NCBI RefSeq assembly: GCF_007747215.1
Contig: NZ_CP036273.1
Location: 6,556,322 to 6,620,321, forward strand
Direction: 5' to 3'
Source: Urbifossiella limnaea
GTDB taxonomy: Bacteria; Planctomycetota; Planctomycetia; Gemmatales; Gemmataceae
DNA: 64,000 bases
A program made the position numbers and the translations under genes. Of this stretch, positions 4,401-16,634 are shown in pieces. Position 1 is the first letter of the stretch, and the number at the start of each line of letters is the position of its first letter. The notes under the pieces were generated by a model. That model saw only the letters and a list, made by a program, of their open reading frames with translations, was not told the DNA's origin and ran no database searches.

Positions 4401-5393
4401 GAAGGTGAGCCGCCCCTCCGCGGTCGGCGTGCCGGCGCCGGTCAGCGGGAACGGCAGCCGCGTGACGGAGGCGAACCCCTTCCCGGCGGCCACTTCCAGC
4501 TCGGCGCCGGTCACGGCCACGTCGTCGGTGACGGTCAAGCTGATTTCGACGCGCTGACCGGGGAGCACGGCGCGACGGCCGTTCGAGAAGCCGGCGACGG
4601 ACGCGAACCGCGGCGGCTCGTCGGGCCGCGGCCGCACGCGCACCGGCACCTCGGTCCGCAGTTTCCGCGCGCCGGTCTCGTTCGCCAGCACGAGCCGCAG
4701 CACGCCGGGCTCGCGCACCGGGAACGTCGCCGAGCCGCCGAGCGCGTCGGCGTCGAGCGCCACGGGCAGCGTCTCGGGCAGTGCCGAGGGCGCGTCGGGC
4801 TTCCACTCCAGCGCCGCGGTCGCGGCCGGGCGGGTGAAGCGGAGGCGGACCGCGGCCGTGCTGCCGGCCAGCGCGTCCAGGTCGGCGAAGCCGGGCTGCG
4901 CGCGCGGCTTCACGGTCGCGGCGGCGTAGGCGGGCGGCGTCAGGTCGACGGCGGTGCCAGGGGCCAGGTCCACCGGGTCGGCGACGCGAACGGCGTACCA
5001 CTCGCTCGCGGCCGGGCCGGCTTCCACGCGGTACTCGAAGTCGGCGGCCGGCGCCGGCAGCACGACCACGGCCGCGCCGGTGGCGGCGTCGGGCGTCATG
5101 CGGCGGCGCGTCTCGGGCTCGCCCGGCGCGGCGCGGGTCACCAGCTCGACGACGCCGGGCAGCGGCACGTCGGCGGCGGTCGGGTCGAGGTACGCGGACA
5201 GGGTGACGGGCTCGCCGCGGCGCACGACGGCATCACCCGTGGGGACGACGACGCGGAACGGGGCGACGGCGCCGGGGCGGAACCAGCCGGCGGAGCGGCG
5301 GGCGAGTTCGACGCCGGCGGCGAACAACCCGACCGCGAGCAGCAGGCCGAGGCCGACGCCGGTGCGGCGGGCGGCTCCCGGGGGCGCGGGCAT
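1425..5393 (-). CDS. Very large Ala-rich membrane-anchored protein with beta N-terminus and helical C-terminus
   Basis: 1322 residues from an ATG at 5393. After a Pro/Arg-rich start, one transmembrane segment lies at about 12-28 (GLGLLLAVGLFAAGVELA). Residues about 40-370 look beta-rich, with repeated phrases such as RGEPVTLSAYLDP and PGQRVEISLTVTDDVAVTG typical of Ig-like or DUF4175-like exported domains. From about 390 to the end it is extremely Ala/Arg/Asp/Leu-rich and likely a long helical or coiled-coil array. The call of a cell-envelope protein is inference; no enzymatic motif is visible. A TATAGT sequence about 45 bp upstream (5435-5440 on the plus strand) could be a -10 element. Large proteins of this type are common but uncharacterised in planctomycetes. 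Confidence 0.75.
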   Translation of the reverse strand: MPAPPGAARRTGVGLGLLLAVGLFAAGVELARRSAGWFRPGAVAPFRVVVPTGDAVVRRGEPVTLSAYLDPTAADVPLPGVVELVTRAAPGEPETRRRMTPDAATGAAVVVLPAPAADFEYRVEAGPAASEWYAVRVADPVDLAPGTAVDLTPPAYAAATVKPRAQPGFADLDALAGSTAAVRLRFTRPAATAALEWKPDAPSALPETLPVALDADALGGSATFPVREPGVLRLVLANETGARKLRTEVPVRVRPRPDEPPRFASVAGFSNGRRAVLPGQRVEISLTVTDDVAVTGAELEVAAGKGFASVTRLPFPLTGAGTPTAEGRLTFDPTALAGVTGQGNGAGILRVRLRAADARPGGAPAALPDDGWHEWHVTPLAPPLDEQETFGPYHAVAERTGAAQKQLAEARGVLAPVLDARPTKGGLPVDHAARLADARAKVQAAAAALRAGAAEAERYPGTKAWAASYRDAAATVVAEADDFLRRAATDDPAVRLEALTAFALRQRQAVLLIGNLAAAHHRATRARLDADRLAALAVAYAALADRAATGADAAAERTRLAARFDAILADSEDLRAAVAASAGAERRDLARRAEALAAAARDLDAVADRLAADVRAAVCAELAAAQAALSERAVATLDRLGTAARLTRVTLPDPAGFRAAGEHLAGDRGAAALTELEKLAQALDRAAEGFARPAFDPADGKAVARALIPWQDDIRARAAGFPTITDAAKAALRTEQRALLAAAARLNLPADPVLAPLRDEVRVHLATAVTRLDADPKAAPQPMQLAAGALARLADATPSAAERRKRGVAELERLRAEHEAAAVGVEGVLRGFDRQTPDESVRREFATQVGPPLEQYEPLADRLAALDLPGFEARRAAAVEAVRTAAADLRAGLPLDGAAALAAARRALDRFAESVNGQQPVDALAAELARLQAELVVRPDPAAQAGITERLTRLSAPEAAVLLHDARETPKDARRAAEVLAALADRLAGRRTDADRLLTFTAARARAAAVAKAKAGQPASPTSDDERRQLGREAKELEHVRVGAAGQVLKRRALDAYARLAALAGPDRDAAGQAQLSELLGKLAAASAGVADVRRPDPPPEPDPAADYLPSPQLAARLNGLAAEQRGVRDRAKGVGDVVKERLRPADATAFDELERRLRESGAGPAADRLHVGDARTALLVLPADSALKAEVRALTTNAAAARQGARARELARDADALAAAVAATDQPAAVRSAAEFARQAARSLTTAAERTDAADVVGSDRARGEAVRALERVPRELRGTEPVGPDAGPGRAVRAAATAVRGGDLRRAAAALAEAARAAAP

Positions 5394-7488: not shown

Positions 7489-7627
7489 CCACGCTCGGGC
7501 CGAAATCATTGTTTCCGGCCGAGGGGGGTCGATCCCCGGAAGCATGTCACCGACTCATAAAAAAGTCCGTTCGGGCGACTCGCCGCCACCGCGTCGGCCG
7601 CAACCCTTTCTCCCGACCGAGGTTCCC

Positions 7628-8422: not shown

Positions 8423-8566
8423 GCGCCGGGTCAGGCGAAGAGGCCCCCCGATGAGAGGCGGTTTCATGGCAAGGATTGTCGCCTTTTCGTTATGCGCGGT
8501 CGCTCGGGGCGTGGTAGCCTGCACCTGATTTGCAACCTGACGATGCCACCTCTCTGCGAGATACCC

Positions 8567-10381
8567 ATGTCGTCGCCCACGGACCCGACCCTCGATTCCA
8601 TGCCAGAGCCGACCGAGCCGGGCCCGGAACAGACCAACCGCTTGTTCGAGGTGTTCCCACCAGATGACGCGTCCGTGGAGCCGGACGAGGACGGAGGCGA
8701 GTGGGAATTCGAGGAAGCCGGCGACACACCCGGGGCGGAAACCACGGCCGTTGCCGAGACGGGTACGGCGGGACCGCGGTTGCGGAGGCGGCGCCGCCGG
8801 CCCCGGCTCGACTCACCCGAACTTCGGCTCCGCGGTCGGCGTGCGCTGTGCCCGCGGGTCGAAGACATCGCCCCGCTGATGCTCAAGACGGCCAAACTCC
8901 GCGTACTCGGCGGCTACCTTCAGTCCGTCCGGGGGTTGGAGGACGACGACCTCACCCGCATCCTGCGCGACGACGCCGCAAAACTCGCTGATCCCGAGCG
9001 GGTCCGTGCCACGCTCGCGTCTCACGACCCGGACTATAACCGCGGACAGCTCAAGGCGATGATTCTGGCCGTCCTCCTTCAGGAGGAAACGCACACGCTG
9101 CCCGAAAACCGGCTCGACGCCAAGGTGATCGAGTTCGAGAAGGCGCTGGCCGGGCGCGCGGCCGCGTTTGACCTCGCCGCACTCCGCAAGGCCGACCCGG
9201 ACCGGTGGCACTCGCTCGACACGTACCGAATCGTTCTCGACGCGGCCTGGAGTAACGACGGGCAGATTTCGCCGGACGAAGCCCGGTTGCTTACCGTCCT
9301 CCGCAAGCACCTGGGCATTCCCTTGGAGGAACACTGGGTCATCAGCGCGCTCATCGGCCGGTTTCCGAAGACGGGGGGCGCACTGCACACACCCGACGAG
9401 GTCAACGACGCCCGCAAGGACTTGCAGCGACAAAGCGTGGTCTGGAGCTACCGCGACGAGAGTAACCAGCTCAACGACGTGATCCCAGCCGAAGTCGCAC
9501 CGACGTGTCGGGAGTGGGCCGGCCAGGAGCTCCAGGTGGTGAACTACCGCCGGCTCCTATCGCACGACGCGCTGCTCCTCCCGGACCTGTGGGCGGCGCT
9601 CGACGCCCGCGGGCTCGACCGCTCCGGCAACAAGCCCGACCTGATCGCCCGCATCGTCGCCAGCGACCTCCGCCCGACGACCGTACTCGGCGGGTTGGAC
9701 CGGGAGCGACTGTCGTCCATGTGCGGCACGTTCGGGCTGAAGTCGTCCGGAGCGAAGGCCGAGTTGATCGCCCGGATCGTCGAGTTCTACGACGACCTGA
9801 CGTTCGAGGTGCGGCAGACGAAGGACGAGCGTGAGGCGTGGTACAGCGACTACGTCGCGCTGGCGAGCCGGTCCTACGCCGAATTGCGGGCGAAGAAGGT
9901 CATCACCAAAGACCTGGACATCGAGCACCTGTTCGAGGCAGCAACGGCGTTCCTGTTCGGGGTCAAGTTGAAGGCGACGTGCGACCCGAGCCGGACCGAG
10001 AACCGCGCGGACGGGCGGGTGCGGCTGGACGCCGACAACTGTGTCCTGTGGGACTGCAAGTCGGTCGAAGCCGCCGTCAACTTGCAGGACCACCTGGACG
10101 GCCAGTTCGACAGCTACCTGCGGAAAGAGCAGCAGGTGGGGCTAAAGCCGCTCGGGTTCTTGGTCATCGGCCCGGCGTTCACGCCGCAGTCGATCCGGCT
10201 GGCGAACCAGTACAAGGCCCGGACGAATTGGGACGTGGCACTCGTTCAGGCGGACGCATTGAAGCACCTTGCCGACCGCTGGGCGGCGACCGAGCCGGAC
10301 AAGCCGTTCCCCGTCCGCCTGCTGGTGCGCACGGAAGTCATCGATAAGGAGCGGGCCGAGTTCCTGCTGAGTCTGGCGTGA
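8567..10381 (+). CDS. SAP-domain protein with C-terminal PD-(D/E)XK (FokI-like) nuclease domain
   Basis: 604 residues from MSSPTDPTLD; two earlier in-frame ATGs (8492, 8543) are possible. Order of parts: an acidic, low-complexity N-terminus (1-70); an Arg-rich patch (71-80); a helical region (95-200); a TerB-like helical segment around 215-262 with DGQISPDEARLL; two SAP-like DNA-binding helices (about 338-366 and 379-406, each with a K-x-x-LIARIV core); and a nuclease-like C-terminus. In the last part E458 (LFEAAT), D482 (RADG) and D496-C-K498 (LWDCKS) fit the E...D...DxK pattern. The spacing and the following QFDSYLRKE and FLVIGPAF resemble the FokI cleavage domain. No methyltransferase lies nearby. 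Motif reading is direct; DNA cleavage and a defence role are inference. Confidence 0.72.
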   Translation: MSSPTDPTLDSMPEPTEPGPEQTNRLFEVFPPDDASVEPDEDGGEWEFEEAGDTPGAETTAVAETGTAGPRLRRRRRRPRLDSPELRLRGRRALCPRVEDIAPLMLKTAKLRVLGGYLQSVRGLEDDDLTRILRDDAAKLADPERVRATLASHDPDYNRGQLKAMILAVLLQEETHTLPENRLDAKVIEFEKALAGRAAAFDLAALRKADPDRWHSLDTYRIVLDAAWSNDGQISPDEARLLTVLRKHLGIPLEEHWVISALIGRFPKTGGALHTPDEVNDARKDLQRQSVVWSYRDESNQLNDVIPAEVAPTCREWAGQELQVVNYRRLLSHDALLLPDLWAALDARGLDRSGNKPDLIARIVASDLRPTTVLGGLDRERLSSMCGTFGLKSSGAKAELIARIVEFYDDLTFEVRQTKDEREAWYSDYVALASRSYAELRAKKVITKDLDIEHLFEAATAFLFGVKLKATCDPSRTENRADGRVRLDADNCVLWDCKSVEAAVNLQDHLDGQFDSYLRKEQQVGLKPLGFLVIGPAFTPQSIRLANQYKARTNWDVALVQADALKHLADRWAATEPDKPFPVRLLVRTEVIDKERAEFLLSLA

Positions 10382-10515
10382 CCTACCCGACAGCAATCGG
10401 GATTCGTCAATCAAGTTTCGCCCGGCGAGCCGGGGCGCCTGCCCCCGGGTTCTCGTCCCACGCGAGCGGCGAAGGCGATCCGAGTTTCCTGAACCAGCCA
10501 CGGATCGGCATTACC

Positions 10516-11127
10516 ATGCGACTCATCGTTACCACTGTGGTGTGTTTTTCGGTGGGCGTTTACGTACTATTGGCGGCCCCAATCCCGGATGCCGCGCGCC
10601 CGTTCACACTGCCGCACACGATAGGAACCAAATGGACCTATCGGGTGAAGGGAAGTGACGAAAAGTTGACAATGGTTGTTACGGACATTGTCAGCGACAA
10701 GGAGCATGGGAATCTGGTTACAGTCTCATATCGATCTACGAAAGGTGAACCTGGTATTTGGGAAATTGTTTCGTTGGACGGCCGCCAGCTCTTGGTGCAT
10801 CAACAAGGGCCATTTGAGTGTGTCCCCCCGATCCCCTGGATCCGCACCCCCTACCTTCAGCATGATAAGTGGGTCGTACAATATACCCTGTCGACTTCTT
10901 CGAGTAGCTTTGACTACGCCGCTCAGTTCGTGCAAGGCCCTGTTGCTCGCGTCGAAGTCCCGGCAGGCAAGTTTGAGGCGGTCCGCGTCCATGCAATCCG
11001 GGAGGGCTTCGGGCGAGGGGCACGAACCCGTTGGTACGCCAACGGAGTCGGTGTCGTGAAGGAAGTTGAAAAGGGCGGGGACACGCTCGAATTGGTTTCA
11101 TTCGAGCCTGGGCAGAAACCGCGGTAG
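10516..11127 (+). CDS. Exported protein of DUF3108/TapB-like type, atypical base composition
   Basis: 203 residues from MRLIVTTVVCFSVGVYVLLA, a signal peptide. The upstream part of the open frame lacks coding character. GTKWTYRVKGSDEKLTMVVTD near the N-terminus and VPAGKFEAVRVHA plus RTRWYANGVGVVKEV near the C-terminus match a widespread exported beta-barrel-like family (DUF3108/TapB-like) seen in planctomycetes. The gene is visibly poorer in G+C (roughly 55% by eye) than its neighbours and uses many A/T third positions, which suggests recent transfer or relaxed codon use. It follows the SAP-nuclease gene by 134 bp and ends 10 bp from the convergent acyltransferase fusion gene. Function unknown. 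Confidence 0.72.
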   Translation: MRLIVTTVVCFSVGVYVLLAAPIPDAARPFTLPHTIGTKWTYRVKGSDEKLTMVVTDIVSDKEHGNLVTVSYRSTKGEPGIWEIVSLDGRQLLVHQQGPFECVPPIPWIRTPYLQHDKWVVQYTLSTSSSSFDYAAQFVQGPVARVEVPAGKFEAVRVHAIREGFGRGARTRWYANGVGVVKEVEKGGDTLELVSFEPGQKPR

Positions 11128-11137
11128 TGAAAGCCGC

Positions 11138-13768
11138 TCACCCCAGCTGCGCCCGGAGGAGCTTGTAGTCCGTCTTGCCGGTGCCCAGCACCGGCAGGCT
11201 CTCCACCCGCCGCACCTCGTCCAGCCGCATCACGCCGCGGAAGCCCTCCTCCGACAGGATCGCGTTCGCCTCCCGCACCGTCAGCGGCTCCGTCGTGAAC
11301 AGCACCACCTGCCGGCCGCCGTCGCCGTCCGTCCCCTCCACCGCCACCCGCGGGCCGGCGTCCGTCGGCGGGTAGCGGCGCGTGAACGGCTCCTCCAGCG
11401 CCGGCAGCGAGATCATCTCGCCGCCCGCCTTCAGGAACCGCTTCAGCCGGCCGTGGAACACGATCGCCCCCGTCGGGTCCAGCGCCGCCAGGTCGCCCGT
11501 CACGTACCACCGCTCGCCGGCGATCACCCGGAACGGGTCCGCGGCGCCCTCCCCCAGGTAGCCGGGGAAGATCGTCGGGCCGCCCACCAGCAGCATCCCC
11601 AGCTGGCCCTGCGGCAGCACCGCGTCCGTCTCCAGGTCGGTCACGCACACCCGCACCCCGGGGATCGGGTCGCCGACCGTCCCCGGCTTCACCCGGCCCG
11701 GCACGTTCACCGACACCACGGGGGCGCACTCGGTGATGCCGTAGCCCTCCAGCACCTCGGCCCGCGGGGCGACGCGGGCGTAGGCCGCGAACAGCGACGG
11801 CGGCGCCTTCTCGGCCCCGGCCACCACCAGCCGCAGGGCGTCGAAGTCGCCCGGCTTCGCCCGCTCGGCCAGGAACCCCAGGAACGTCGGCGTGCCGAAC
11901 ACGATCGTCGCCTGGTACCCGGCGCACTTGCGGACCAGCGCCGCCGAGTCGGTCGGGTCCGGGTGGTGGACGACGCGCAGCCCCAGCACCAGCGGCATCA
12001 GCCCGGTGATGGACAGGCCGAAGCTGTGGAACAGCGGCAGGAAGCCGAGGATCGAGTCGGCGCGGGTGAAGTCCGCGACCGCGGCGATGCCGCGCTGCAC
12101 GCTCAGGATGTTGTCGTGCGTCAGCGGCACCGCCTTCGGCGCCTTCTCGCTGCCGCTGGTGAACAGCACCACCGCCGGCTTGTGCGGGTCGGCCGCGGCG
12201 TTCGCCAGCAGCCGGTGCTTCACCGCACCGCCGAAGTAGCGGACGCGCAGCAGCCGCGACAGGAGTTCGACCTTCCCCATCTTCGCCCGCAGGTGTTCGA
12301 GGAAGATGAACTCGGTGCCCGGCACCTGCACCTGGGTGCGGTCGATGAACGCCTTCGACGTGACGACGTGGGTGAGGCCCATCACCTGCGCGGCGTGGCC
12401 GAGGTTGGCGGGGCCGGTCGTCCAGTTCAGCACCGCGGGGAGCTTGCCGGCGAGCATGATCGCCAGCAGCGCCGTGTCGCCGGCCACGGACGCCGGCAGC
12501 AGCAGGCCGACGCTCGCCGAGGGCAACTCGGCGAACCGCCGGCTCATCGCCCACGCCCCGACGACGAGGCGCTCGTACGTGACGCCGCCGGCGAGGTCGT
12601 CGGCGAGGATCACGTCACGGCGCTGCTTGAAGGCGCGCGTCAGGACCGCCTCCGGGATGGTGGCGCCCTCCACGGCCACGGGGTCGGCGCTGGTCGCGGG
12701 GTTGAACCACGCGGCCGGCGGCGGCTTCGGCGGGGCGCGGTCGAGGAGCCCTTCGGCGAGCGCCCACAGCTGCCCGAGCGTGGTCGGCACGGCGTCGCCG
12801 GTGAAGCCGAACTGGTGCTCCACCTTCAGCGTGATCTCCATGCCGTCGAGCGAGTCGACGCCGAGCCGGGCGAAGGTGGTGTCGGCGGCGTTCTCGCCGG
12901 GGTCGAGCGGCCGCTTCAGGTGCTCCTCGACGATGTGGGCGACGGCCTCCTTCGTGGCCGGCTTCACCTTCGACAGGTCGAGCCCGGCGGCAGTCTTCGG
13001 CGGCGGGAACTCGAACGTGCGCGGGCCGACCGCGAAGTGGTACGGGACGTAGGTCGGCGTCTCGGGCTTGCCGCCGGTGTCGGCGTTGAACCAGTCTTCG
13101 AGCCAGCGGTTGACGGCCTCGCGCGTCGGCTCGGGGCGCGTCCCCGGCGGGAACGCCTCGACGGTGATGGTGCCGCGGCGCCGGGGGGTGAACAGCAGCA
13201 GGTTCGCCAGCAGCAGGCCGACGCCGCGGAGGAGCTCGGCGACGAGGTGCGGCTTGCCGCGCGCCCAGCTGAGGCGGCTCCCCCACAGGCCGCGGGTGCG
13301 GACCAGCAGCACGGTGACGTTCGGCACGGCGGCGAGGATGTCGGCCGCGCCGCGGGCGCCGCCGAGGTCGGTGCGGCCGTCGTGGGTGAGGTGGCCGCTG
13401 GGCCACACGATGACGTTGTCGCCGGCCTTCAGGGCGTCGATGGCGGTCTGCACGGCGGCGGCGGCGCGGTCGCGGGTCTCGGCGCCGATCTGCGCGGTGT
13501 CGGGGACGCGGATGGCCCGCAGCAGCCAGGCGAACGGGGCGAGGGCCGGGTTCTGGAAGTGGGTTTCGAGGAGCATCGGCCGGAAGTTCAGCCGCGCCCA
13601 CAGGTGCGCGAAGACGTTCGGCGGCTCGCAGAACCCGGGGTGGTTCGGCATCACGAAGAACGGCCCGGGGCCGCGGGCGGCGTCGAGGCCGGTCACGGCG
13701 AGGCGGTAGCGGAGGGCGAGGACGGCGCGGGCGAGCACCCAGACCACCCACCGGACCGGACCGAGCAT
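11138..13768 (-). CDS. Acyltransferase-ACP-AMP-dependent acyl ligase fusion (Aas-like)
   Basis: 876 residues. Residues 1-230 form a PlsC-like acyltransferase: NHPGFCEPP (42-50) and VWPSGHLTHDG (121-131). Residues about 265-345 form an acyl-carrier domain with GVDSLDGMEI (303-312) and the phosphopantetheine serine S306. Residues about 370-876 form an AMP-binding ligase with LFTSGSEKAPKAVPLTH (535-551), GYGITECAP (675-683), YVTGDLAALD and the catalytic Lys in GTGKTDYK (862-869, K865). E. coli Aas joins acyltransferase and ligase without an internal ACP, so this three-part form would load a fatty acid on its own ACP and pass it to a lipid. The acyltransferase motif reads HX4E (H43, E48) where HX4D is usual. 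Confidence 0.88.
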   Translation of the reverse strand: MLGPVRWVVWVLARAVLALRYRLAVTGLDAARGPGPFFVMPNHPGFCEPPNVFAHLWARLNFRPMLLETHFQNPALAPFAWLLRAIRVPDTAQIGAETRDRAAAAVQTAIDALKAGDNVIVWPSGHLTHDGRTDLGGARGAADILAAVPNVTVLLVRTRGLWGSRLSWARGKPHLVAELLRGVGLLLANLLLFTPRRRGTITVEAFPPGTRPEPTREAVNRWLEDWFNADTGGKPETPTYVPYHFAVGPRTFEFPPPKTAAGLDLSKVKPATKEAVAHIVEEHLKRPLDPGENAADTTFARLGVDSLDGMEITLKVEHQFGFTGDAVPTTLGQLWALAEGLLDRAPPKPPPAAWFNPATSADPVAVEGATIPEAVLTRAFKQRRDVILADDLAGGVTYERLVVGAWAMSRRFAELPSASVGLLLPASVAGDTALLAIMLAGKLPAVLNWTTGPANLGHAAQVMGLTHVVTSKAFIDRTQVQVPGTEFIFLEHLRAKMGKVELLSRLLRVRYFGGAVKHRLLANAAADPHKPAVVLFTSGSEKAPKAVPLTHDNILSVQRGIAAVADFTRADSILGFLPLFHSFGLSITGLMPLVLGLRVVHHPDPTDSAALVRKCAGYQATIVFGTPTFLGFLAERAKPGDFDALRLVVAGAEKAPPSLFAAYARVAPRAEVLEGYGITECAPVVSVNVPGRVKPGTVGDPIPGVRVCVTDLETDAVLPQGQLGMLLVGGPTIFPGYLGEGAADPFRVIAGERWYVTGDLAALDPTGAIVFHGRLKRFLKAGGEMISLPALEEPFTRRYPPTDAGPRVAVEGTDGDGGRQVVLFTTEPLTVREANAILSEEGFRGVMRLDEVRRVESLPVLGTGKTDYKLLRAQLG

Positions 13769-13880
13769 GTGTCACCCCGGGGTTCGACGGGGCCAGTGTA
13801 TCGCGGCCGGCCGCGGCGACCCGTGGGCGGGGGGTTCCCGGCCCCTTCCGGGGCCCGGCCCGCCGCGGTACGATGACCCC

Positions 13881-14153
13881 ATGAACCCGGACGACAAGGT
13901 CTGCCTGTGCTTCCACGTCACCCGGCGGAAGCTGGTGAACTGGACGCGGCTGCACCAGCCGCGGGTGCCGAGCCAGCTGTCGGCGTGCGGCGGCGCCGGC
14001 ACCGGGTGCGGGTGGTGCATCCCGTTCCTGAAACAAATCTTCCGCCAGGAGGCCGCCCTCGACGCCGTCTCCGCCGAGGAGTACGCCCGCGGCCGGGCCG
14101 GGCACGTCGCCGCCGGCAAGGGCACGCCGCCGCCCGGCGCCGAGCCGGCATAG
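13881..14153 (+). CDS. BFD-like [2Fe-2S]-binding protein
   Basis: 90 residues from ATG 13881. CLCFHVTRRKL (8-18) and SACGGAGTGCGWC supply four cysteines in the CxC...CxxxxxxCxxC-like arrangement of the bacterioferritin-associated ferredoxin fold. BFD-type proteins bind one [2Fe-2S] cluster and either release iron from bacterioferritin or act as small domains in larger oxidoreductases. Here it stands alone, with a Gly/Pro/Ala-rich C-terminal tail. It is divergent from the acyltransferase fusion gene and its stop lies only 3 bp from the convergent PQQ-propeller gene. No bacterioferritin gene is in the window. Confidence 0.85.
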   Translation: MNPDDKVCLCFHVTRRKLVNWTRLHQPRVPSQLSACGGAGTGCGWCIPFLKQIFRQEAALDAVSAEEYARGRAGHVAAGKGTPPPGAEPA

Positions 14154-14156
14154 GCG

Positions 14157-15539
14157 TCACCGGCCGGGGCCGCGCACGCAGATCAGCTCGGTGCCGGTGC
14201 GGGCGAAGAAGCCGCCGTCTACCGCCGCCACCCCGTACACCACGTCGCCGACCGCCGAGTACCGGGCGGCGTCGCGCTCCTCCGGCGAAACCGGCGGGCC
14301 GCCGCCCGGCCCCTTCCCCTCCGGCGGCCGGGGGAGCGTCGCGGCGGCCTGCTCCCGGGCCTCCGCTTGCCGGCGGGCGAAGTCGGCCGCGCCCCAGAAG
14401 CGGTTCGCCGCCACCTTCTCGAACTCGGGGCCGGCCTTCAGCACCGTCGTCACGCCGTCCCTGCCGAAGAAGTAGACGTGCTCGCCGGCCCCCACCGGCG
14501 TCGCCCAGCACGGGTTGTCCAGCCGCTCGGCGTACCGCTCCGCACCGGTCGCCAGGTCCACGCAGTGGACGAGGCCGGCCTTGGTGACGAAGTAGGCGTG
14601 GCCGCGGTGGACGAGCGGGCTGGCGTGGTGGCTCACCACCCGCTTCAACTCCCACTCCGGCTCGAAGGCGAGCTTGCTGCCCGTGGCCGCGAGGCGGACG
14701 CAGCCGTTCGACGGCGCCGCGGCGCCCGCCTTCGCCCGCCCCTCGCCGGCCCCGAAGACCACCAGGTCGCCGGCCACCGCCGGCGACGGGATGTTGTTCC
14801 CCACCAGCCCGCCGAGGGTGGCGAGCTCCGCCCCGGTGGCCGCGTCGTAGGCGTCGAGCGAGCCGCTGCTGCTGACCACGACCGCCGGCCGGCCGCCGAC
14901 CCGGGCCGCGACGGGCGATGTCCACGACGACCGGCCCTTGCGGTCGGCCTTCCACACGGTCTTGCCGGTCGCCTTGTCCAGCGCCACGAGGTACGACGGC
15001 TCGCCGTCGTCGATCAGGATCACGACCGCCGCGTCCGTCTGGGCGGGCGAGCTGCCGACGCCGTGGTTGTTCTTGAACGCGCCGTAGTCCTTCGTCAGCG
15101 ACCGCTGCCAGCGCACCCCGCCGGCGTGCGTGAGGGCGACCACGTCGCCCGACTCGAAGAAGGCGACCACGCCGTCGGAATCGGCCACCGGCGTCGGGGC
15201 GGCCCGGCTCATCATCGGGTTGTTCTTCCCCTTCTGGCCGGCGGCGAACTCCTTCGCCCACGCCGCCCTCCCGGTGGCCGCGTCCACGGCGACGACGAGC
15301 AGCTTCTCCTTCTCGGCCCCGTCGACGGCGGTGACGTACACGCGGCCGTTCCACACCACCGGCGACGACTGGCCGTACCCCGGCAGCGGCGCCCGCCACG
15401 CAAGGTTCTCGGTCGGCGACCACGTCAGCGGCAGGTTCTTGGCGGCCGAGGTACTTGTGCCGTCGCCGCGGAAGCCGGGCCACGCCGGAGCCGGCGTCGG
15501 GTCCGCGCAAAGCAGCAGCGGGAGCAGGAACAGGTTCAC
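14157..15539 (-). CDS. Exported PQQ-like beta-propeller protein
   Basis: 460 residues with a short signal (MNLFLLPLLLCADPTPA). WPGFRGDGTS near the N-terminus is the start seen in many planctomycete PQQ-repeat proteins. Repeated blades include VVAVDAATGRAAW, LVALDKATGKTVW, LDAYDAATGAELA and VHCVDLATGAERY, which are the W/TG signatures of PQQ-like or BamB-type propellers. No dehydrogenase active-site motif was seen, so an enzymatic role is not supported. It starts 21 bp downstream of the DUF1559 gene stop on the same strand and is probably in that operon. Location is predicted to be periplasmic or cell-surface. Confidence 0.88.
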   Translation of the reverse strand: MNLFLLPLLLCADPTPAPAWPGFRGDGTSTSAAKNLPLTWSPTENLAWRAPLPGYGQSSPVVWNGRVYVTAVDGAEKEKLLVVAVDAATGRAAWAKEFAAGQKGKNNPMMSRAAPTPVADSDGVVAFFESGDVVALTHAGGVRWQRSLTKDYGAFKNNHGVGSSPAQTDAAVVILIDDGEPSYLVALDKATGKTVWKADRKGRSSWTSPVAARVGGRPAVVVSSSGSLDAYDAATGAELATLGGLVGNNIPSPAVAGDLVVFGAGEGRAKAGAAAPSNGCVRLAATGSKLAFEPEWELKRVVSHHASPLVHRGHAYFVTKAGLVHCVDLATGAERYAERLDNPCWATPVGAGEHVYFFGRDGVTTVLKAGPEFEKVAANRFWGAADFARRQAEAREQAAATLPRPPEGKGPGGGPPVSPEERDAARYSAVGDVVYGVAAVDGGFFARTGTELICVRGPGR

Positions 15540-15560
15540 GGGTGGGGTCTCCGGGTGGGT

Positions 15561-16634
15561 TTAGTAGTCGCTACCGCCGACGGTCTCGCCGCCGGCACGG
15601 GTGGCCAGCGCCCGCCACGCGGGGAGCGCGATCGCGTCGCGGACGAAGCGGACGCTGCCGTCGCCCAGGCACACGTTGACGCCACCGGCGAAGGTGCTCC
15701 GGGCCGACAGGAAGCCGATGCCGTGGGCGGTCGCGTCCGGCTCCGGCGAGTTCGGCGGCAGTGCGGCGGTGAAGCCGTTCACCGAGGCGTTCGCCCAGAT
15801 CCACGACCCGCCCCGGTTGCCCCGCCACGACGTGGCCGTCTGGTAGTCGGCGGCCCCGATCGGCGGGCTGGCCCCGTAGCCAGGGTTGGCCCCGCCCGGC
15901 CCGGTGAACAGCCCGCGGCCCGACAGGCTGCCCGTCTGCCGCCGCCGCTCGTCCGGCGTCAGCTCGGCGAACGGCTTGGTCTGGTTCACGTTCAGCCCCA
16001 GCAGGCACTGCGACAGGAACAGCGTGTTCGAGGTGCCGTCGGTGATGTCGCCGAACTTCAGGCCGGGGCCGTAGAAGAACATGCCGTCCGACGGGAACCG
16101 GGTGTCGTACCCGTTCGGGGCCGCCGCGCCGGCCCCGGCGAGCCCCGAGCCGAGGTTCACGACGTAGCTGGTGCCGGCGTGGGTGCCGCCGCCCGAGTTG
16201 ATGGTGAACAGCGGCGGCTGCGCGTCGCCGGGGCAGAGGAACGTCTTCAACACGGTCGCGGCGGCCGGGGCGACCGCCGGGTTGAGCTGGAACGACGCCG
16301 TCGGGAAGACGCCGACGAACAGCGGCTGGGTCGTGTCGATCTGCTTGCCGAGCGGCTCCTGCTCGATGTACGGTAGCAGCTGCGCGTGGACCGAGTAGCC
16401 GAACGAGGTGGCGTTCGCCGCCCCGGCCGCCTTCATGCCGGGCAGGCTGCCGGTGGCGCTCTCGAAGGCGTGCAGGGCGAGGCCGAGCTGCTTCAGGTTG
16501 TTCTGGCTGGAGGCGCGGGCCGCGGCCTGCCGCACCTTCTGCACGGCCGGCAGCAGCAGGCCGACCAGGATGGCGATGATGGCGATGACGACGAGCAACT
16601 CGATGAGCGTGAACCCGAGACGACGGCGGAGCAT
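15561..16634 (-). CDS. DUF1559 pilin-like protein
   Basis: 357 residues starting at MLRRRLGFTLIELL. An upstream start at 16736 would add 34 residues and destroy the short pre-pilin leader, so it is rejected. The prepilin peptidase site is after G7, followed by FTLIE with Glu at +5, then a hydrophobic helix (VVIAIIAILVGLLLPAVQ). The planctomycete DUF1559 domain follows, ending with VNVCLGDGSVRFVRD, the family's C-terminal H/DG-type motif. The family is exported through a type II/IV pilus-like system and is hugely expanded in planctomycetes; individual roles are unknown. The PQQ-propeller gene follows. Two 18-bp direct repeats lie 36-84 bp upstream of this start. Confidence 0.92.
   Translation of the reverse strand: MLRRRLGFTLIELLVVIAIIAILVGLLLPAVQKVRQAAARASSQNNLKQLGLALHAFESATGSLPGMKAAGAANATSFGYSVHAQLLPYIEQEPLGKQIDTTQPLFVGVFPTASFQLNPAVAPAAATVLKTFLCPGDAQPPLFTINSGGGTHAGTSYVVNLGSGLAGAGAAAPNGYDTRFPSDGMFFYGPGLKFGDITDGTSNTLFLSQCLLGLNVNQTKPFAELTPDERRRQTGSLSGRGLFTGPGGANPGYGASPPIGAADYQTATSWRGNRGGSWIWANASVNGFTAALPPNSPEPDATAHGIGFLSARSTFAGGVNVCLGDGSVRFVRDAIALPAWRALATRAGGETVGGSDY

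Follow-up and report, generated by a model that had tools for sequence, protein, structure and literature searches.

Background

The cutting part of type IIS restriction enzymes and of designed nucleases is as a rule a FokI-type domain, which normally operates together with a methylase and a part that reads the sequence. In FokI and BspD6I, an N-terminal DNA-binding part and a C-terminal cleavage domain are carried on one chain. SAP and PD-(D/E)XK nuclease domains are likewise found on one chain in FAN1, where the nuclease is of the VRR-NUC type. Shango, a tested anti-phage system, consists of a TerB-like protein (SngA), an ATPase (SngB) and a helicase (SngC) (PMC10250203). In this study, we describe a gene of the planctomycete Urbifossiella limnaea (family Gemmataceae), located at positions 8567 to 10381 on the plus strand of a 64,000-nucleotide stretch of contig NZ_CP036273.1 (positions 6,556,322 to 6,620,321; hereafter the window), whose 604-residue product combines two SAP motifs with a predicted FokI-type nuclease domain. 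Our best reading is a self-contained DNA-binding nuclease of the FokI type; that it serves as an accessory effector against invaders we put at roughly one half. We infer DNA binding from the SAP motifs, and infer cleavage and defence as well.

Each part of the protein is known, and it is the combination of SAP with a FokI-type domain, having neither methylase nor partner, that is unrecognised by the libraries searched. In the open-access literature (subscription journals lay outside the scope), no paper describing a prokaryotic SAP and FokI nuclease was found. The gene represents an additional family, of which the defence and protein-family libraries searched recognise only the SAP motifs.

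Fold and active site of the predicted nuclease domain

An AlphaFold2 model of residues 408-604 was built using 13 homologues. It reached a predicted local distance difference test score (pLDDT) of 90.4 and a predicted template modelling score (pTM) of 0.86, and its order of helices and strands is typical of a PD-(D/E)XK core. When the model was compared with the PDB using Foldseek, every one of the best matches was a FokI or BspD6I structure (E 6e-7 to 4e-4). Alignment using VIA-align gave a Z-score of 16.0 against FokI (root-mean-square deviation 3.6, 168 residues aligned) and 14.7 against BspD6I (182 aligned), followed by R.BspD6I2 (13.6) and HindIII (10.8), with the rest below 10. PDB sequence searches with the nuclease returned no match. 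Comparison with FokI alone using hhalign, for which the FokI fragment was confirmed as 1fok, did not reach significance at the sequence level (E 0.092), yet placed the motifs in register. The assignment is decided by the fold comparison, by which the modelled C-terminal domain is clearly of the FokI type, as the original prediction, made from the sequence alone, had proposed.

In the hhalign register, FokI D450 stands opposite D482 and FokI D467-x-K469 opposite D496-x-K498. FokI E425 is opposite E457, and the spacing from Glu to Asp is 25 residues in both proteins (E425-D450 and E457-D482). An alignment of 15 sequences, which includes two from haloarchaea at 24% identity, shows no variation at any of the four positions. 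The predicted set of catalytic residues thus held for D482, D496 and K498, but the Glu had been placed at residue 458, which is Ala. Of the two outcomes that would have refuted the prediction, a C-terminus without a PD-(D/E)XK core and a lack of conservation of these residues among homologues, neither was observed. The segments QFDSYLRKE and FLVIGPAF, which had been likened to the FokI cleavage domain, are both present and conserved. The structures matched include the E418A mutant of BspD6I, which would fit a catalytic role for a Glu of the first helix. From the predicted fold together with this conservation, it is nearly certain that the domain is a nuclease by predicted activity.

The features of the locus, all on the plus strand, are as follows.

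8567..10381, plus strand: coding sequence of the 604-residue protein with two SAP motifs and a predicted FokI-type nuclease domain; same-length homologues occur in other planctomycetes
8567..8806, plus strand: N-terminal ~80 residues, acidic and then Arg-rich, low-confidence or disordered, poorly conserved
8990..9484, plus strand: helical module, residues ~142-306, winged-helix-like (142-172 with 276-305), with the TerB-like stretch between
9212..9334, plus strand: putative TerB-like stretch, residues ~216-256
9593..9658, plus strand: SAP motif 1, residues 343-364 (PF02037)
9713..9790, plus strand: SAP motif 2, residues 383-408 (PF02037)
9821..10378, plus strand: predicted FokI-type PD-(D/E)XK nuclease domain, residues 419-604
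9935..9937, plus strand: E457, predicted catalytic Glu in the first core helix
10010..10012, plus strand: D482, predicted metal ligand
10052..10060, plus strand: D496-C-K498, predicted active-site D-x-K
10513..11127, plus strand: DUF3108-like gene, within a 2.7-kb presence/absence segment

An in-frame ATG at 8492, upstream of 8567, is also a possible start. The match to Pfam SAP is significant (E 1.1e-11, 44.5 bits against a gathering cut-off of 23.9) and occurs twice, in agreement with the two SAP-like helices expected; these are the only SAP matches by Pfam in the genome, a single contig of 7.8 Mb with high G+C content. No NCBIfam model matched the protein, and PHROGs gave nothing significant.

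With FokI and BspD6I, the protein therefore shares the fold, the E..D..D-x-K pattern, the spacing of E and D and the order of binding and cleavage parts on one chain. It differs in having two SAP domains, a different N-terminal module and no cognate methylase, and in an identity of ~15%. In addition, G512 and S516 stand opposite the FokI dimer pair D483/R487, leaving that pair unmatched in the hhalign register. With no methylase, the locus does not qualify as a type IIS restriction-modification system. A more distant, unannotated FokI-type relative (hhalign 92.6%) was also seen in another planctomycete protein (L089, G150:C2:1079502), whose N-terminus is unrelated to the 604-residue protein and whose last 334 residues have no Pfam match.

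The N-terminal module and its occurrence in a Shango-like ATPase

When the full-length protein was modelled by AlphaFold2 from an alignment restricted to close homologues, the pLDDT was 51, and the N-terminal assignments are weak for this reason. In this low-confidence model, residues 142-322 resemble winged helices (VIA Z 6.4-8.6). A TerB-like segment, NDGQISPDEARLL (residues ~216-256), is visible by eye through the motif DG-x-I-x-x-DE. No Pfam TerB model matches the 604-residue protein, ENT being a weak best, and a profile of the region aligns weakly (E 0.11) to a haloarchaeal Shango TerB_N protein, within its TerB part. The TerB-like segment of the original prediction thus stands as a motif, suggestive in its sequence, and is not statistically established.

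A set of 392 planctomycete genomes was scanned using a profile of the C-terminal part, including the second SAP motif, and again using a profile of the N-terminal module. Both scans brought in a two-gene operon in another planctomycete (G476). The first protein of this operon begins with a region homologous to residues 130-409 of the nuclease protein (BLASTP E 3e-17, 27% identity across 281 residues). It is 968 residues long, and in it the TerB-like, winged-helix and SAP module is fused to an ATPase of the SngB/BrxD type. Beyond the module come more SAP motifs and an ATPase domain of the BrxC/BrxD family (PF10923, E 1.7e-96), and the PADLOC models for BrxD (7e-78) and SngB (1e-57) match the protein. 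The second gene encodes a helicase of the BrxHI/SngC type (SngC E 2e-126). This Shango-like operon (L044:1870-7028, G476:C16) includes no separate TerB gene.

The homology indicates that one and the same kind of module stands ahead of a FokI-type domain here and ahead of a Shango/BREX-type ATPase elsewhere. In contrast to Shango and to the BrxD and BrxHI proteins of BREX, there is neither ATPase nor helicase here, and the effector would be the nuclease on the same chain; the locus is for this reason not Shango. Neither the SngB ATPase nor the SngC helicase was found near the window gene or among shared neighbours of the homologues. It may tentatively be proposed, and we regard it as rather doubtful, that the TerB-like, winged-helix and SAP part is a portable DNA-sensing module used in two defence designs. 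In one it would be fused to a Shango/BREX ATPase with a helicase; in the other it would be fused to a FokI-type nuclease as one-gene, methylase-free DNA-cutting immunity, in which sensing of the state of the DNA and control by dimerisation spare the host. If true, this would hint at what is recognised by the TerB-like part of Shango, and a natural SAP and FokI-type nuclease on one chain, with a Shango-like sensor module and no methylase, would bear on how a lone nuclease distinguishes foreign from own DNA.

Distribution, homologues and neighbourhoods

Matches were found in 11 of the 95 family genomes and in two of 170 genomes of the order to which G351 belongs; nuclease-bearing matches occurred in three of the 392 sampled planctomycetes, the genome of the window counted. 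Several family copies (in G017, G043 and G060) are fragments or frame-broken. The ratio of nonsynonymous to synonymous substitution (dN/dS) is 0.06-0.29, as under purifying selection, so the intact copies are constrained. A contig labelled Verrucomicrobiota was placed beside Gemmataceae in the gene tree, which may reflect transfer or misbinning.

Distant homologues, both annotated as hypothetical, are carried by the Halorubrum provirus Humcor1 (QRG24139.1), described in PMC7911831, and by a Natrinema plasmid (WP_138247088.1), where the gene lies downstream of an integrase. Homology extends over the C-terminal 57%, all catalytic residues included, at 24% identity; Pfam SAP was not detected in either protein. 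A scan of viral contigs using the planctomycete profile gave no match, and a scan using the haloarchaeal protein matched only the Humcor1 provirus itself.

In the 64-kb window, no methyltransferase or known defence gene adjoins the nuclease gene, and a survey of the homologue loci revealed no methylase and no partner gene common to them, in keeping with the description of the protein as lone. An N-6 methylase lies ~5 kb from the Natrinema copy, beyond an integrase. Two homologues have known or candidate defence genes as immediate neighbours. One of these (L028) adjoins a 2563-residue protein with kinase, superfamily 1 (SF1) helicase and MTES_1575 nuclease parts (PDC-S37-like, E 1e-170) and, as its other neighbour, a 1718-residue superfamily 2 (SF2) helicase, and the giant proteins on either side (L028:102-7790 and 11108-16261) make up a defence island. 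The other (L026) adjoins HEC-01A (E 9e-134). In a congener (G089), the flanking GDPD and acyl-CoA synthetase genes are 249 bp apart, so the 2.7-kb segment with the nuclease and DUF3108-like genes is present here and absent there.

Proposed role and rival explanations

The N-terminal helical and winged-helix module, with its TerB-like stretch, and the two SAP helices would bind DNA and position the C-terminal FokI-type domain on it. That domain would cut by means of E457, D482, D496 and K498, probably in a Mg2+-dependent manner, and may stay inactive unless two molecules come together on DNA with some particular feature, which could be a structure, a modification or a sequence that the host rarely has. 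The requirement for a dimer, rather than methylation, would then spare the host. The target would be foreign phage or plasmid DNA; the gene itself is occasionally carried by proviruses and plasmids. This reading is tilted towards defence by the provirus and plasmid copies, by the two homologues with defence-gene neighbours and by the homology of the module to part of a Shango-like protein, and defence is favoured by the presence in only 11 of 95 family genomes, the several broken copies and the absence at the syntenic site in the congener. Three results weigh against it. No PADLOC model matches the 604-residue protein; most homologue neighbourhoods are housekeeping (metH, polA, dnaX-type and others); and within planctomycetes the gene tree tracks taxonomy, from which the gene appears old and mostly vertical, not rapidly shuttled.

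The last two of these results would suit a structure-specific repair or recombination nuclease with a FAN1-like or EndoMS/NucS-like role, in which the SAP and winged-helix parts would recognise DNA that is branched or damaged, for the nuclease to incise. This is the main rival, although we judge it unlikely. It has in its favour the FAN1 layout of SAP and PD-(D/E)XK domains on one chain, a copy with polA nearby (L033), the strong purifying selection and the presence of EndoMS among the structural matches (Z 7.5). On the other hand, about nine in ten close relatives are without the gene, which, with its repeated decay, is odd for a core repair gene, and carriage on a provirus and a plasmid is not in its favour either. 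Moreover, the fold places the nuclease with FokI, EndoMS scoring far lower, and no VRR-NUC match was found (Pfam, E up to 5). FAN1 does not figure among the structural matches listed by VIA-align, which does not by itself speak against it.

Less probable still is an orphan restriction enzyme, either type IIS or type IV-like and modification-dependent, whose N-terminus would recognise a modified base or a short sequence while the FokI-type domain cuts at a distance. Both nearest structures are type IIS enzymes, the winged-helix-like N-terminal region recalls the recognition part of FokI, and having no methylase is what would be expected of a type IV-like enzyme. However, no known reader of modified bases (such as SRA, EVE or McrB-N) was matched, SAP would be unusual as a specificity domain, and a sequence-specific enzyme would need a methylase, of which none is adjacent. 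A selfish or mobile-element nuclease (homing-like, or damaging competitors of elements) that is now chromosomal seems very improbable, for although the provirus and plasmid copies, dispersed insertion sites and decayed copies would suit it, the planctomycete copies have no conserved ends, adjoining integrase or transposase, or fixed target site, and the integrase near the L033 copy lies several kb away.

Other features of the locus

The DUF3108-like gene that follows the nuclease gene is compositionally odd, as had been noted, with a G+C content (GC) of 0.559 against 0.733 for the window, and of 0.615 at third codon positions (GC3) against more than 0.92 in most neighbours. It was considered as a partner of the nuclease and rejected, since it belongs to a many-copy family in the genus and does not stand beside the homologues. 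At the corresponding site of the congener (L087, G089:C559, ~5104-5334), a short element with long terminal inverted repeats (GGTGCGTCGACCGCTCGGTGTCGG...) was found in place of the nuclease.

A gene for an Ion_trans (PF00520) channel adjoins the homologue in a Phycisphaeraceae metagenome-assembled genome (L033:10846-11589), and another lies one gene from the homologue in provirus Humcor1 (L041:9596-10426); the two cases together may be a coincidence.

A second copy of the nuclease gene survives in the genome of the window as a remnant of 45 residues (68-112) at C1:1516122 (L002:1500-1626), cut off beside a short inverted-repeat element. A dispersed repeat with the core TCACCGACTCATAAAAAAGTC/T lies at 7544-7570 of the window and has 36 matches in the chromosome (G000:C1, at most one mismatch), the reversed control giving none, and it also occurs just upstream of the truncated second copy.
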